Part shown: in pieces, positions 10,087-23,850 of the stretch | Layout of the letters: each line of letters opens with the position of its first letter | Position numbering within the stretch: the stretch's first letter is position 1 | Translations under genes and position numbers: made by a program | Origin: Acidobacteriota bacterium | Lineage (GTDB): Bacteria > Acidobacteriota > Terriglobia > Terriglobales > Acidobacteriaceae | Assembly: GCA_021804965.1 (NCBI GenBank) | Contig: JAJZGG010000002.1 | Coordinates: 1 to 64,000, forward strand | Length of the DNA: 64,000 bases | Direction of reading: 5' to 3' | Notes under the pieces: generated by a model | What the model was told of the DNA's origin: nothing | Database searches by the model: none | What the model saw: only the letters and a program-made list of their open reading frames with translations

Positions 10087-10118
10087 ATCGGGGTGCTCAA
10101 GGGCACCCCGATTCTTTT
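10087..10118 (+). terminator. Intrinsic terminator after RND operon
   Basis: Perfect 10-bp stem atcggggtgc/gcaccccgat, 6-nt loop, followed by tctttt. Confidence 0.85.
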
Positions 10119-10495: not shown

Positions 10496-10525
10496 TTGAC
10501 AAGCAGAATACATTTTGCTTATCTT
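10496..10525 (+). promoter_or_regulatory. Putative sigma70 promoter of the his operon
   Basis: TTGACA (10496-10501), 18-bp spacer, TATCTT (10520-10525); A/T-rich tract immediately upstream (cctcaaaaaattat). Confidence 0.6.
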
Positions 10526-10533
10526 CGCATTAG

Positions 10534-10599
10534 ATGAGTCTCGGCTTCCATCCTGATCTGCACCATTTGCATGGACTCCATGCATGCGGGCAGTCATGA
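10534..10599 (+). CDS. hisL: Histidine leader peptide (21 aa, MSLGFHPDLHHLHGLHACGQS)
   Basis: 5 His codons in 21 residues immediately upstream of an antiterminator/terminator pair and the his operon; below the ORF-track length cutoff. Confidence 0.85.
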   Translation: MSLGFHPDLHHLHGLHACGQS

Positions 10600-10650
10600 A
10601 GTGAGCTGAGGTATATAGACAGTAAAAGTATCCTCCTCTGGACTGCCCGC
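10586..10650 (+). promoter_or_regulatory. Putative antiterminator stem of his attenuator
   Basis: gcgggcagtc (10586-10595) is the exact reverse complement of gactgcccgc (10641-10650); overlaps 5' arm of terminator. Confidence 0.8.
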
Positions 10651-10678
10651 CGAACCCCATCGGCGGGCTTTATTTTTT
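10645..10678 (+). terminator. Intrinsic terminator (attenuator) between leader peptide and hisI
   Basis: 9-bp stem gcccgccga/tcggcgggc, loop acccca, U-tract tttatttttt. Confidence 0.9.
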
Positions 10679-10735
10679 CACGGAGCCCGCAAGCAACGCA
10701 TGCGGCCATGCGAATCGGAAAGTGACAAGGACACG

Positions 10736-11104
10736 ATGATGAATCCCGAGATTGACTTTAACAAGATGGATGGACTGATCCCTGGTGTTGTGCAGGATGT
10801 GGCAACCGGGGAGGTTCTGATGCTTGGATTTTTGAACGAGACGAGTTATGCCATGAGCCTGTCGAGCGGCTATGTGACTTTCTGGAGCAGGACGCGGCAG
10901 AAGCTCTGGATGAAGGGGGAGTCAAGCGGCAACCGGTTGCGGATTGTCACCGCATCCACGGATTGCGACAACGATGCGATTGTCTTTCGTGTGGTGGTGG
11001 AGGGCGATGGCCTGGTCTGCCACGAGGGCACCGTTTCCTGCTTTACGAAGTCGATTGTGACTGCAGAGAGCAAGCAGGCAGAAGAGGTGAGCTATGTCCG
11101 ATAA
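10736..11104 (+). CDS. hisI: Phosphoribosyl-AMP cyclohydrolase
   Basis: [59 protein letters not shown]; first gene of his operon; no HisE domain. Confidence 0.97.
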
Positions 11105-11969
11105 GCTACGGCTCGGCATTCCCAAAGGTAGCCTGCAGGATGCGACGATTGCCTTGTTTCGTCGTGCCGGATGGAACATTTATGCCGATGGTCGCTCCTA
11201 TTTTCCATCGATCGATGATCCGGAGATAGAGTGCATGCTGATCCGCGCGCAGGAGATGGCGCGGTATGTGGATCATGGGGCGCTGGACGCGGGCCTGACA
11301 GGAATCGACTGGGTGGTGGAGAGTGGACTGACGCTGACCAGCATTGCGTCGCTGACCTATGCCAAGCAGAGCCGGCGAAAGGTGCGTTGGGTTTTGGCCG
11401 TGCCGGAGGGTTCCGGCATCACCCGGGCAGAGGATCTGGAAGGCAAGATCGTGGCCACGGAACTGGTGGAGGTGACGCGTCGCTACTTTGCGCAGAAGGG
11501 TGTGAACGTCAAGGTGGAGTTCAGCTGGGGCGCAACCGAGGTGAAGCCGCCGATGCTGGCTGATGCCATTGTGGAAGTGACTGAAACGGGAAGCAGTCTG
11601 CGTGCCAACCGCCTGGCAATCATTGATACGGTGATGGAAAGCGAGACGCACCTGATCGCCAGCCGCAAGGTTTGCGAGGATCCGTGGAAGCGGCGCAAGC
11701 TGGATTCGATTGCGCTGATGCTGCGGGCGGCCATTGATGCCCAGTCCCAGGTTGGCCTGATGCTGAATGTGCGACGGGTGAATCTGGAGCAGGTGTTGTC
11801 TGTCCTGCCGGCTCTCAATTCCCCCACCATTTCCGAGCAGAGCAACCCCGAGTGGGCGGCAGTCAACACGATTCTGGAAGAGTCGGCCGTACGCGAAGTG
11901 GTGCCTCGTCTCAAGGAGGCTGGAGCGACGGGCATTGTCGAGTATCCACTGAATAAAGTGGTGCTCTAG
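11094..11969 (+). CDS. hisG: ATP phosphoribosyltransferase (HisG, long form)
   Basis: [60 protein letters not shown]-terminal regulatory domain present. Confidence 0.97.
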
Positions 11970-12038
11970 GCTGGTGCTCCAGGCTGGTGCTCCAGGCTGG
12001 TGCTCCAGACTGGTTCTGCAGGCTGGTTCTGCCACCAG
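11961..12038. repeat. 13-bp tandem repeat, 6 units, spanning the hisG stop codon and hisG-hisDC spacer
   Basis: gtgctctaggctg, gtgctccaggctg x2, gtgctccagactg, gttctgcaggctg, gttctgccaccag. Confidence 0.9.
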
Positions 12039-12081
12039 GCATGCATGGCAACTGCGCAAAGGGAAGTGGGAGACAGGGAAG

Positions 12082-14478
12082 ATGCAACTGTGGAATCTGC
12101 AGAGTCCGGACGCCGCTGAGCGCACCCAGGCGCAGGCAGCACTGCAACGACTGATTGATCGTGGCGCAGCGTTGGAGACAACGCTGCTGCCCGAGGTGAT
12201 CGCGATTGTGGATGCCGTGCGCACGGGCGGGGATCGCGCGCTGCGGCACTATGCCGAAACGTGGGATCAACTGCCGCAGGGCGCTGCATTTTCCATGGAG
12301 CCGCGTGCAATGCAGCAGGCGTGGGAGCGGCTGGAGCCTGCCATGCAGGAGGCGCTGCGAACTGCGGCGGCGCGCATCCGACGCTTTGCCGAGCGGCAGA
12401 TGCCGCGTGCATTGGAAGAGCGAGAGTCCAGCGGACTGCGCGTGGGGCAGGTGATTCGCGCGTTGGATGCAGTGGGTTGCTATGTGCCTGGCGGTCGGCA
12501 TCCGTTGCTTTCCACCATGCTGATGACGGTGATTCCGGCGCAGGTGGCTGGCGTGGAGCGCATCGTGGTGGTCTCGCCGAATCCTGCTCCGGAGACTCTG
12601 GCAGCGGCGCATCTGCTGGGCGTGAAGGAGTTCTATCGCGTGGGCGGTGCGCAGGCCGTGGCAGCGCTTGCCTGGGGCACGGAGTCGATTGCTCCGGTGC
12701 GGAAGATTGTCGGACCGGGAAATCGGTATGTGACGGCAGCCAAGACGCTGGTGGCCCGCAGTGCGCACTGCGGAATTGACATGCAGGCCGGGCCCACGGA
12801 GATTGTGGTGGCCAGCGAGAGTGGGGATGCGGATGCAATCGCTGCCGATCTGGTGGCGCAGGCCGAACACGATCCCGACGCACTGGCCGTGCTGGTGACT
12901 CCGCGCATGGATCTGGCACTGGCCGTGCGCGATGCGGTGCAGCGGGCTGCAGCGGGCAACGCGGTGGCCGGGCAGGCGCTGGAAGCGAATGGGCATCTGT
13001 TTGTTGCCGCCGATGCACAGCAGATGCGCGCGATGGTGAATGCCCTGGCACCGGAGCATCTGACGGTGGATGCTGCTGCGGATGTGGAGTGGGTGCGGAA
13101 TGCAGGCAGTGTCTTTGTGGGGGCCTGGTCGCCGCAGCCGATGGGAGACTATATCTCCGGGCCGAACCACACATTGCCGACGAGCGGGCAGGCAGCGCTG
13201 CGGGGAGGCCTGAGCGTCTTCGATTTTCTGAAGCTGATGACGGTGCAGGAGTATTCGCCGGATGCCTTGGCCCTCCTGGGTCCGCATGCGGCGCGGATTG
13301 CGCGGGCCGAGGGATTGACTGGGCATGAGACTGCGATTCTTGGGCGCATGGGCGGCGTTCGCGCTTCGGATGGAATCGCAACAGATGGAATCTGCTTTCC
13401 GGAGCCGCGTGCGCGCGTGCGGCAGATGCCGGAGTATCATCCCCCGCTGGGCAGCCGGGAAGCGCTGCGACTGGACTTCAATGAGAACACGCAGGGCTGC
13501 TCGCCACGTGTGCTGGAGGCTTTGGCCGCGCTCACGGAGGAGGCACTGACGCGCTATCCGGAGCGTGGTCCGCTGGAGGCGCGTGTGGCTGCGCATCTGG
13601 GCGTGCAGGCCGGTGAAGTTGTGCTGACCAATGGTGTGGATGAGGCGATTCATCTTCTGTGCCAGACCTATCTGGATGCAGGCGATGAACTGCTGCTGCC
13701 TGTGCCCACCTATACGATGTATGAAATCTATGCTGCTGCCACGGAGGCGCGCGTGGTGCGTGTGGCGGCGGAAGCGGATTTTCGCTATCCGGCGGAGCGA
13801 CTGCTGGCTGCGGTAACGCCGGCGACGCGATTGATTGCGATCGCCAATCCGAATAGTCCGACCGGAGCGGCAGCGGGTCGGGAGGATCTGCTGGCATTGG
13901 CAAAGGCAGCACCCCAGGCGATGCTGCTGGTGGATGAGGCCTATGTGCACTTCCTGGGGGAAACTGTCGTGGATGCCATTGCGTCGGTGCCGAATCTGGT
14001 GGTGGCACGCACCTTTTCCAAGGCCTATGGTCTGGCGGGACTGCGGCTGGGAGCTCTCGTGTCACGCGAGGAAAATCTCCGCTGGGTGCGGCGGGTGCTG
14101 TCGCCGTACAGCGTGAACACCGCGGCATTGGCTGCCCTGGATGCGGCGCTTGGCGATGAAGCGTATCTGGCCGGCTATGTGGAGGAGGTGCTGGCTGCAC
14201 GCGCTGAATTTGAGGCCGGCCTGGACAGGATGGCGGTGCGACGATGGCCATCCCATGCAAATTTTGTGCTCGCCGAGATTGGTCCGGAGCATGCAGCGTT
14301 TTGCCGCGCCATGCGGCAGCAGGGGGTACTGGTGCGGGATCGGTCGGCCGATCCGGGCTGCGATGGTCTGGTGCGCATCACCGTGGGAACGCGGGCACAG
14401 ATGCGTCGTGCACTGGCAGTGATGGAGCAGGTGCTGCCGAGGAATGCGAACGAAATGGCCGGGAAAGGGATGCAATGA
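12082..14478 (+). CDS. hisDC: Fused histidinol dehydrogenase / histidinol-phosphate aminotransferase
   Basis: Single 798-aa ORF: HisD motifs ([94 protein letters not shown]), then HisC motifs ([53 protein letters not shown]). Confidence 0.95.
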
Positions 14479-15107
14479 GTCAGCGTGCGGTGAAGGAGCA
14501 GGAGGCTGCAGTTCCAGCAGTTCGGCAGGCGGAAATCCTGCGGCATACAAGTGAAACGACGATTGTGCTTCGGCTCACGGTTGAGGGTCGGGGGCAATAC
14601 AAGGTGAGCACAGGAATTCGCTTTTTTGACCACATGCTGGAGTTGTTTGCCCGGCATGGAGGGTTTGATCTGGAGTTGAGCTGCAAGGGCGATCTGGATG
14701 TGGACCAGCATCATACGGTGGAGGATGTGGGGATTGCCCTTGGAGAAGCCTTTGATCGCGCGGTGGGCGACAAGCGCGGGATTCTGCGCGCCGGATACTT
14801 TGTGATGCCGATGGACGAGACGCTGGCCGTGGCTGCGGTGGATCTCTCCGGACGGACGGCGTTTGCCGTGGAGACGGCCGTGAAGACGCGTCTGGTGGGG
14901 GACCTGCAAAGCGAACTGGTGGTGGACTTCTTTGAGGGATTTGCGCGGGGTGCGCGGGCCAACGTGCATGTGAAGGTGATGTATGGCCGCAGCAATCATC
15001 ACAAGATCGAAGCCAGCTTCAAGGCTTTTGCGCGGGCCATGCGCGGCGCCTGCTCGCGGGACAGGCAGATGGCCGATCTGCTGCCCAGCACCAAGGGATT
15101 GCTGTGA
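14475..15107 (+). CDS. hisB: Imidazoleglycerol-phosphate dehydratase
   Basis: [50 protein letters not shown] overlap with hisDC. Confidence 0.97.
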
Positions 15108-15709
15108 TGGTGACGGTGGTCGATTATCGGGCGGGAAATCTGGCCTCCGTGGTGAAGGCACTGCAGAAGCTGGGTGCGGAGGTTTGCGTGACAAGCGATT
15201 GCGGCGACGTGGAAGCTGCGGAGCGGATTGTGCTGCCGGGCGTGGGGCATTTCCAGGCCACATCGCGCCTGGCCGAGAGCGGGCTGAAGCTGTCGATGCA
15301 GGCTGCGATGACGCGCGGTGTGCCGTTGCTGGGCATCTGTGTGGGCATGCAGTGGTTGTATGAAGGCAGCACGGAGGCTGCGGATGTGGCAGGCGCAGGA
15401 TGGTTTCCGAGCCAGGTGACGCGCTTTCCTTCCGGCGGGGAAAAGGTGCCGCATGTGGGCTGGAATCAGCTGGAGCAGGTGCGCGAATGTGCCCTGCTGG
15501 ACGGCATTGCGGAAGGCGAGTTTGCCTATTTCACCCATGCCTGGCGCGCTCCGGTGAATCCGGCAACGGTGGCGACGACGGAATATATGGGCAGCTTTGC
15601 GGCAGCCAGCCAGCGCGGAAATGTCTGTGGAGTGCAGTTTCATCCGGAGAAATCCGGCGCGACAGGATTGAAGATTCTAAGGAATTTTCTGGAGATGAAG
15701 CGATGCTGA
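15104..15709 (+). CDS. hisH: Imidazole glycerol phosphate synthase glutaminase subunit
   Basis: [55 protein letters not shown]. Confidence 0.97.
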
Positions 15710-16482
15710 CGCGAAGGGTGATTGCCTGCCTGGATGTTCGGGATGGGCGCGTCGTGAAGGGTGTGCAGTTTGTGGATTTGATCGATGCCGGAGATCCGGC
15801 GGAGCTGGCCTGGCGCCACGCCGAATCCGGTGCCGATGAGATTGTTCTTCTGGACATCACGGCCACGCACGAGGGGCGCGCGACCCTGCTGGACACAGTA
15901 CGACGAACGGCTGCGCAGTTGTTTGTTCCGTTGACGGTGGGTGGGGGCATTCGCACGCTGCAGGATGCCGAGGCGGTGTTTGCAGCCGGGGCCGACAAGG
16001 TGAGTCTGAATTCGGCAGCGCTGGCAAGCCCGGAGCTGATGACGGAGATTGGTTCGGAGTTCGGAGCGCAGGCCGTGGTGGTCGCCATCGATGCGCGACG
16101 CGACCCGCAGGCTGCCGACCCGGTGCGCAGTGCCCGCGTCTATACGCATGGCGGTCGGCGGGATGCCGGTCGAACGGTGGTGGAGTGGGCCTGCGAGGCG
16201 GAATCCCGCGGAGCAGGAGAGATCCTGCTGACGTCGATGGATGCGGACGGTACGCGTTCCGGATTTGATTGCGAGCTGACGGCCGCTGTGAGCACTGCGG
16301 TGGGGATTCCGGTGATTGCCTCGGGCGGCGCCGGCAGCGTGGGCGATTTCGCAGAGGTGTTTACGGCAGGCCATGCGGATGCGGCTCTGGCGGCGAGCAT
16401 CTTTCATTTTGGCGTGGCCAGCGCGCGTGAGCTGAAGGCGCAACTGGCAGCACAGAAAATTGCAGTGAGGTATCCGTGCTAA
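15703..16482 (+). CDS. hisF: Imidazole glycerol phosphate synthase cyclase subunit
   Basis: [60 protein letters not shown]; internal ATG of track ORF 15400. Confidence 0.97.
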
Positions 16483-17162
16483 TTCCTTCGATTGATCTGA
16501 TGGGTGGTCGCGTGGTGCAGCTGGAGCAGGGCGAACGGCTGCGCATTGCGAGCGAGGATCTGGAGTATTGGGTGGAGCGCTTTGCCGCCTATCCGCGTGT
16601 GCAGCTGATTGATCTGGATGCTGCGATGGGGCGGGGCGACAACACGGCACTGGTGGAGCAGATTGCGCGGCGGCTGCCGGTGCAGGTGGGTGGCGGCATT
16701 CGCTCCGTGGAGGCAGCGCGTCGCCGGCTGGATGCCGGAGCCGAGCAGCTGATTCTTGGCTCCGCATTGTTCGTTGAGATGGATGGTCACGGCATGGTGA
16801 AAACGGAGTTTGCCAGCGAGATGGCGGAAGCCGTGGGTGCGGCGCGGATCCTGGCCGGGATTGATTCCCGCAGTGGTCGGATTGCCATCAAGGGTTGGAA
16901 GACCACGATTGCATTGACGGCAGAGGAGGCAATCGCGGATCTGGATGCGTATGTGGATGGATATCTCTATACGCATATCGATGGCGAAGGGATGATGCAG
17001 GGGTTTCCGCTGGAGACAGCGCAGAGACTGCGGACGAAAACGACACGCAGGCTGATCGTTGCCGGAGGCATTCGCAGCCAGAGCGAGATTGATGCCTTGG
17101 AGTCGATGGGCGTGGATGCCGTGGCAGGAATGGCGATCTATACGAACCTGCTGCCTGCCTGA
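16476..17162 (+). CDS. hisA: HisA-type phosphoribosylformimino-AICAR isomerase
   Basis: [79 protein letters not shown]; last gene of his operon. Confidence 0.93.
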
Positions 17163-22893: not shown

Positions 22894-23850
22894 CTAGTGT
22901 GCGTGGGGATGATGGTGCCCATGATGATGTCCATGATGGCCGCAGTCGGTGGCCAGCTCCTCCATGGGAATCACGCAGCCTTCGCGGATCACGCAACCTT
23001 CGTGCTCAAACTGGATGGTCGAGTGGGCAATGTGGAACTCCCGGCGGAGCAACTCCTGCAGGTGAAGCAGAATGCACTGGCTTTCCGAAGGGGGAATATC
23101 TTCAATGCGTACATGGCAGGCCAGAGCGCGGGATTGCGAGCCGAGACTCCACACGTGCAGATCATGCACATCCAGCACGCCATCCACAGACTGCATCCGG
23201 GAGCGGATATCCCCAACCACCAGGCCTTGCGGCGTGCCCTCGAGCAGAATGTTCAGTGTCTCCCGCACAATGCCGAAGGAACTCCACAGAATGAGTGCTG
23301 CAATCACGAGCGAGAGTGCCGGATCAATCCAATACTGACCCGTGAGATGAATGATGAAGCCACCCACGATGACCGCCAAGGTCGAGATCGTATCCCCGGC
23401 CATGTGCAGGAAGGCGCTGCGCATGTTCACATCGCGGGCAACCCCCCAAAGCAGCGCCGCAATCAGGCCGTTCATCAGCACACCGGCAGCGGCAACCTCC
23501 ATCATCAGGTGAGGCTCCACGGCCACCGGAGCGGCAATCCGATGGATGGCCTCGACGCCGATCCAGATGGAAATCACCAGCAGCGTGGATGCGTTCAGAA
23601 AGGCAGCCAGGACGCCGGCACGCTGGTAGCCGAAGGTCTTCAGATCGTTGGCCGGGCGTTGCTGGAAATAGACGGCTACGAAGGAAAGCGCAAGAGCCAG
23701 AAAGTCGGATGCATTGTGTCCGGCCTCTGAGAGCAATGCCAGGGAATGCGCCCGCCAGCCGGCATAGAGCGTGACGCCGACATAGGCCAGCGTGGCGGCC
23801 ATGGAGATCCAAAGAACACGGCTGGTTCGCGAAGGGGCATGCACATGCAT
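22894..23850 (-). CDS. Cation diffusion facilitator family transporter
   Basis: LLSEAGHNASDFLALALS, HMAGDTISTLAVIVGG; His-rich C-terminus HHGHHHGHHHPHAH. Confidence 0.95.
   Translation of the reverse strand: MHVHAPSRTSRVLWISMAATLAYVGVTLYAGWRAHSLALLSEAGHNASDFLALALSFVAVYFQQRPANDLKTFGYQRAGVLAAFLNASTLLVISIWIGVEAIHRIAAPVAVEPHLMMEVAAAGVLMNGLIAALLWGVARDVNMRSAFLHMAGDTISTLAVIVGGFIIHLTGQYWIDPALSLVIAALILWSSFGIVRETLNILLEGTPQGLVVGDIRSRMQSVDGVLDVHDLHVWSLGSQSRALACHVRIEDIPPSESQCILLHLQELLRREFHIAHSTIQFEHEGCVIREGCVIPMEELATDCGHHGHHHGHHHPHAH

Follow-up and report, generated by a model that had tools for sequence, protein, structure and literature searches.

Leader-peptide attenuation has been documented mainly in Proteobacteria, with further cases in Actinobacteria (for other amino acids) and in scattered Firmicutes. 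Attenuators with a histidine leader have been described from Proteobacteria and from a small number of Firmicutes lineages (PMC9413887; PMC2965389). The Firmicutes His-leaders stand before his genes or before hisS/hisZ and contain three to five consecutive His codons (PMC9413887, PMC2965389). In Actinobacteria, no His-leader attenuators were found before his genes (PMC1262725), and his control in Corynebacterium is T-box-like (PMC3896937). Here we examined a candidate his attenuator in a member of the Acidobacteriaceae and its relatives across the Acidobacteriota. The window, that is, the whole stretch of DNA analysed, comprises 64,000 nucleotides of contig JAJZGG010000002.1 (assembly GCA_021804965.1). 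It contains a promoter and a short His-rich ORF followed by a his operon:

10496..10525, plus strand: promoter, with a -35 element TTGACA (10496-10501), an 18-nt spacer and a -10 element TATCTT (10520-10525)
10531..10534, plus strand: predicted transcription start, 0-3 nt 5' of the leader ATG, placed by the 8 nt that separate the -10 element from that ATG
10534-10599, plus strand: leader peptide ORF MSLGFHPDLHHLHGLHACGQS*, 21 codons with 5 His, read from the sequence
10549..10581, plus strand: sensor codons, with His at 10549, 10561, 10564, 10570 and 10579, read from the sequence
10736..11104, plus strand: hisI (PRA-CH), first gene of the operon
11094..11969, plus strand: hisG, long form with a C-terminal regulatory domain
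12076..14478, plus strand: hisD-hisC fusion, joining histidinol dehydrogenase and a class I/II aminotransferase in a single reading frame, putative start
14469..17162, plus strand: hisB, hisH, hisF and hisA, putative starts

The operon downstream of the leader is complete: hisI, hisG, hisD-hisC, hisB, hisH, hisF and hisA. Within it, 5.3 tandem copies of a 13-bp unit (TGGTGCTCCAGGC) are found at 11959-12027, between the hisG end and the hisD start. An in-frame TAG (10531-10533) lies immediately 5' of the leader ATG. The His codons of the window leader are scattered and do not form one run. Among the 734 window ORFs that start with ATG and have 10-40 codons, three matched the leader in His richness, the leader itself included. 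Another His-rich short ORF, MEELATDCGHHGHHHGHHHPHAH, was seen on the minus strand at about 22895-22965; the frame further upstream suggests a larger protein, probably a cation transporter, of which this ORF is only the His-rich C-terminus. Eight leader peptides searched against Pfam and NCBIfam gave no match.

The RNA that spans and follows the leader can adopt alternative structures, with the following parts:

10539..10611, plus strand: protector (anti-antiterminator, 1:2) hairpin of the minimum-energy fold, in which the leader ORF folds on itself
10586..10595, plus strand: region 2, the 5' half of the antiterminator, GCGGGCAGTC, within the last leader codons
10641..10650, plus strand: region 3, the 3' half of the antiterminator, GACTGCCCGC, overlapping the 5' arm of the terminator
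10645..10678, plus strand: intrinsic terminator, with arms 10645-10653 and 10660-10668 and a U-tract at 10669-10678

Regions 2 and 3 are exact complements over 10 bp. The terminator has a 9-bp stem with 8 G-C pairs and a loop of 6, followed by TTTATTTTTT, and a folding energy of -18.8 kcal/mol; 57 nt lie between its end and the hisI start. Antiterminator and terminator are mutually exclusive. The leader ORF with its five His among 21 codons, regions 2 and 3, and the terminator with its U-tract all lie where the original prediction had placed them. That prediction saw no clear 1:2 protector stem; such a stem does exist, and it is built from helices 10539-10547/10603-10611 and 10554-10564/10588-10596 with an apical 7-bp helix (10568-10574/10578-10584). 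Region 2 pairs there with 10554-10564, UGA-CUGC-CC with GG-GCAG-UCA, interrupted by two single-base bulges. The leader alone had a folding energy of -35.1 kcal/mol, and the 195-nt region folded more stably than 200 of 200 dinucleotide shuffles (z = -3.5).

Ribosome masking was simulated by hiding bases up to 14 nt past the start of the A-site codon and folding the remainder. When the A site was placed at 10549, 10552, 10558, 10561, 10564 or 10570, with polymerase just past region 3, the 2:3 helix formed at -27 to -36 kcal/mol. Placing it at the last His codon (10579) or at the stop (10597) hid region 2, and only the terminator formed. Simulated stalling at any of the four earlier His codons thus favoured the antiterminator, and a ribosome at the fifth or at the stop favoured the terminator. 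The full-length minimum-energy fold showed a slight preference for the terminator when the A site was at 10558 or 10561, and antitermination for stalls at these codons would require the antiterminator to form ahead of the terminator as transcription proceeds. The scattered His codons of the window, and a stall at 10579 that would mask region 2 and favour termination, count against the attenuation reading. In these folding simulations, ribosome position selected the structure of the window leader, as the original prediction had anticipated.

Conservation was assessed in the family. We searched for hisI in 200 family genomes and retrieved the upstream DNA from 80, plus 30 loci from the search itself, which gave a family set of 94 non-redundant hisI upstream regions. 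A leader was called as a short ORF with at least 4 His in twelve residues. Such an ORF was present upstream of hisI in 94/94 regions, compared with 1/94 on the reverse strand and 56/4000 random 330-nt windows. Leaders in the relatives had a median of 7 His; MTTLVHRHHHHHHVLIVSAETCG and MQIHRHHRHHHHHHVTSVSANPYGLE are typical for the family, and few leaders in the set are poorer in His than those of the window and its closest relatives (L032, L035 and L293). A terminator was detected at 90/94 family loci and 35/41 others, with a median energy of about -21, by a finder that tolerates internal mismatches; a strict finder overlooked many mismatched hairpins. When 100 family genomes were scanned with a promoter-start-His-run pattern, the matches lay mainly upstream of hisI with a few scattered elsewhere, and the reversed pattern matched in 2 genomes. 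A simple search of ten family genomes for Trp-rich leaders before trpE and Leu/Ile/Val-rich leaders before leuA revealed no convincing recurring one, so that his appears to be special in having a leader when compared with trpE and leuA in these genomes.

These counts bear on the idea that the hairpin is merely a constitutive or small-RNA terminator and the His-rich ORF incidental. Terminators between operons are common, and the ORF is just 21 codons long. However, the RND gene upstream has a terminator-like site of its own at 10087-10112, and the promoter intervenes on the his side of it. The presence of a His-rich ORF at the same place in every family relative, together with pairing that is specific to the terminator, makes this idea very improbable.

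The evidence for specific pairing comes from the relatives. In nearly every locus the leader 3' codons beyond the His run can pair with the terminator 5' arm. In most relatives the antiterminator is GTCAGCGG : CCGCTGAC or GCCGGCGG : CCGCCGGC; in the window the register is shifted to GCGGGCAGTC : GACTGCCCGC. This shift is present in the window and L032, whereas their close relatives L035 and L293, which retain the same terminator arm, do not have it. The duplex between leader 3' codons and terminator 5' arm had a mean energy of -20.8 kcal/mol (122 loci), against -18.2 ± 0.23 kcal/mol (lowest -18.9) in 200 permutations of the arms among genomes, and at variable helix positions, which alternate between G-C, G-U and A-U, standard pairs stood above the permuted level (74 vs 67, maximum 72; 65 vs 58, maximum 64); as related genomes are not independent, these permutation figures overstate significance and give the direction rather than an exact value. 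Within the family, the duplex fell to -16.1 after synonymous recoding and to -13.9 after shuffling, and the real duplex was stronger than its own recoded mean in 86/88 cases. In other families the corresponding values were -20.6 (real), -17.2 (recoded) and -14.3 (shuffled). The spacing had medians of 35 nt from the first His codon to region 2, 8.5 nt from the last His codon to region 2, and 26 nt from the stop codon to the terminator arm. Folding of the leader alone also paired region 2 with sequence upstream of it, at a mean probability of 0.71 compared with 0.53 when the 5' part was shuffled; this pairing exceeded the shuffled control in 103/120 loci.

Leader ORFs near structural genes are thought to boost translation by re-initiation in many phyla including Acidobacteria (PMC4833913), and the leader might accordingly work by translational attenuation or coupling, through re-initiation at hisI or through RNA folding that occludes the ribosome-binding site of hisI. 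The distance from leader stop to hisI in the window is 136 nt, however, far over the 10-16 bp range of re-initiation (PMC4833913). The alternative hairpin is also GC-rich with a U-tract, and nearly all relatives have such a hairpin downstream of the leader. Control at the level of translation is highly improbable on these grounds.

The position of the leader start relative to its promoter was similar across loci. TTGAC was found 33-43 nt 5' of the leader start in 107/129 loci, compared with 1.4% of 31,886 control ATGs. A strict scan left 12/129 loci without a promoter, some of them owing to a wrongly chosen ORF start. The promoters follow a TTGACA/TAnnnT pattern, which in nearly all genomes ends about 8-10 nt short of the leader start. 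The gap between the -10 element and the start codon had a mode of 8-10 nt, and a Shine-Dalgarno-like motif was seen at 6/129 loci. Transcription usually starts about 7 nt past the -10 element. Because of this and the 8-10 nt gap, the RNA is predicted to begin with the leader start codon; the 5' UTR expected from the promoter spacing is 0-4 nt long at most loci. The leader cistron is therefore predicted to be leaderless, usually without a Shine-Dalgarno sequence. Groups in which leaderless genes have been predicted include the Acidobacteria (PMC3160421).

A T-box, riboswitch or protein-binding leader could in principle control the operon, with the ORF a by-product, and his operons of Firmicutes and Actinobacteria do use T-boxes (PMC9413887; PMC3896937). 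Yet the window and 20 relatives had no match to any Rfam family at the gathering score, RF00514 His_leader and the T-box models included, and permissive thresholds returned low-scoring, unrelated matches only. Moreover, with the transcript 5' end predicted at the leader start codon, little space would be left for an aptamer. We consider such a leader extremely improbable.

The reading of the element as a ribosome-mediated transcription attenuator of the his operon, sensing charged tRNA-His, is very probably correct. This was the core of the original prediction, and it gained support from the conservation of His codons and terminator, the partner-specific pairing and the ribosome-masking simulation; His-rich uORFs and alternative stems, whose lack in relatives would have spoken against it, are conserved. 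From the observed anatomy we infer that the leader is translated, that ribosomes stall in it and that the operon responds to histidine. Transcription would begin at or a few bases from the leader ATG, and ribosomes would load at a 5'-terminal start codon that lacks a Shine-Dalgarno sequence. When charged tRNA-His is scarce, a ribosome would stall at the early His codons (10549-10570) and cover region 1, leaving region 2 (10586-10595) free to pair with region 3 (10641-10650) as it emerges; with 2:3 paired, no terminator would form and hisI-G-DC-B-H-F-A would be transcribed. When histidine is plentiful, the ribosome would advance as far as the last His codon or the stop and mask region 2, the 10645-10668 terminator would form and transcription would end near 10678. 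If the leader were untranslated, region 1 would hold region 2 in the 10539-10611 hairpin and the terminator would form as well.

Beyond the family, the putative element precedes the his operon in at least 6 other families of the class and in about eleven families of other classes. In the same class, it was seen before hisI in families labelled f2, f80, f82, f83, f84 and f87; it was not seen in f81, f85 and f86, in which no hisI was located beside hisG. Families of other classes carry it before hisI (f14, f23, f43, f45 and f75), hisG (f16, f17, f20 and f66), hisZ-hisG (f24) or hisD (f4). The weakest cases are the single-locus families f17 and f4, in which His codons are few or the terminator is unclear. 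Named carriers are Granulicella rosea DSM 18704, Granulicella sp. S156 and Terracidiphilus gabretensis S55, and further carriers are one Vicinamibacterales MAG and Bryobacterales MAGs; the element was not seen before hisI in Geothrix fermentans. Locus L108 and the T. gabretensis record have identical leader peptides. Automatic calls at L159, L170 and L179 were judged spurious on reading, and leaders missed automatically at L188, L194 and L205 were visible on reading. The 44 non-acidobacterial hisI loci are an unfair negative control, since another gene may come first in their operons.

Two arrangements were seen at single loci. At L175, around 13.4-13.8 kb on the minus strand, two tandem His leaders (MVTATLSRLHHHHHPIIGPGTGAHAV and a second ending in FHAHHHHHFHLPSG), each with its own terminator, stand before hisG in an apparent double attenuator. 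At L148, from another acidobacterial family, a His leader at 966-1020 (MNLRTSARHHHRHHHLV) and a downstream terminator precede a hisZ-like ORF that overlaps hisG.

The original prediction allowed that, in an acidobacterial host, the element might be an undescribed instance. The host is acidobacterial, as that prediction had considered possible. No his attenuator in Acidobacteriota was found described in the open-access literature searched, which agrees with the idea of an undescribed instance; the element is not an isolated instance, being family-wide and common in the phylum. Its spread suggests either an old ancestral mechanism or one that is easily and repeatedly invented. We give about even chances to the fuller view that this is an old, phylum-wide histidine attenuator of the Acidobacteriota, unrecognised by RF00514 and possibly separate in origin from the proteobacterial one, in which ribosomes load a leaderless 5'-terminal start and leader C-terminal motifs (e.g. 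V-S-A-E) are conserved as codons of the antiterminator strand. The phylum is abundant in soil and its regulation is poorly known; more than 130 sequences are now available for comparison, and the element is present in the cultured members G. rosea DSM 18704 and T. gabretensis S55. A leaderless start, if true, would mean that initiation at the very 5' end sets the timing of coupling.

Compared with known systems, the element is a predicted leaderless variant of a known attenuator mechanism that falls outside RF00514, is widespread in the phylum and, as far as we found, is undescribed in Acidobacteriota. With the enterobacterial his attenuator (hisL; RF00514) it shares a leader with His codons, mutually exclusive protector, antiterminator and terminator structures, a position before the his operon and the same predicted logic. 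It differs from hisL in lacking a match to RF00514, in having its hairpins within about 150 nt with region 2 in the last leader codons, and in a leader start that is predicted to be 5'-terminal, without a Shine-Dalgarno sequence. The first gene here is usually hisI, whereas in the enterobacterial operon it is hisG. The Firmicutes His-leaders (Bacillus cereus group, Peptostreptococcaceae and Erysipelotrichales; PMC9413887, PMC2965389) likewise combine a short leader containing a His run with a terminator and an antiterminator. Compared by description rather than by sequence, the published Firmicutes examples are confined to a few lineages, whereas the element here is near-universal in the family and recurrent in the phylum. 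The closest parallel for the leader start is trpL/peTrpL of S. meliloti, where the attenuator transcript also starts at the ATG of the leader ORF (PMC7298713). That system responds to tryptophan in an alphaproteobacterium and its 5' end is reported (PMC7298713), whereas the element here concerns histidine and its 5' end is predicted.
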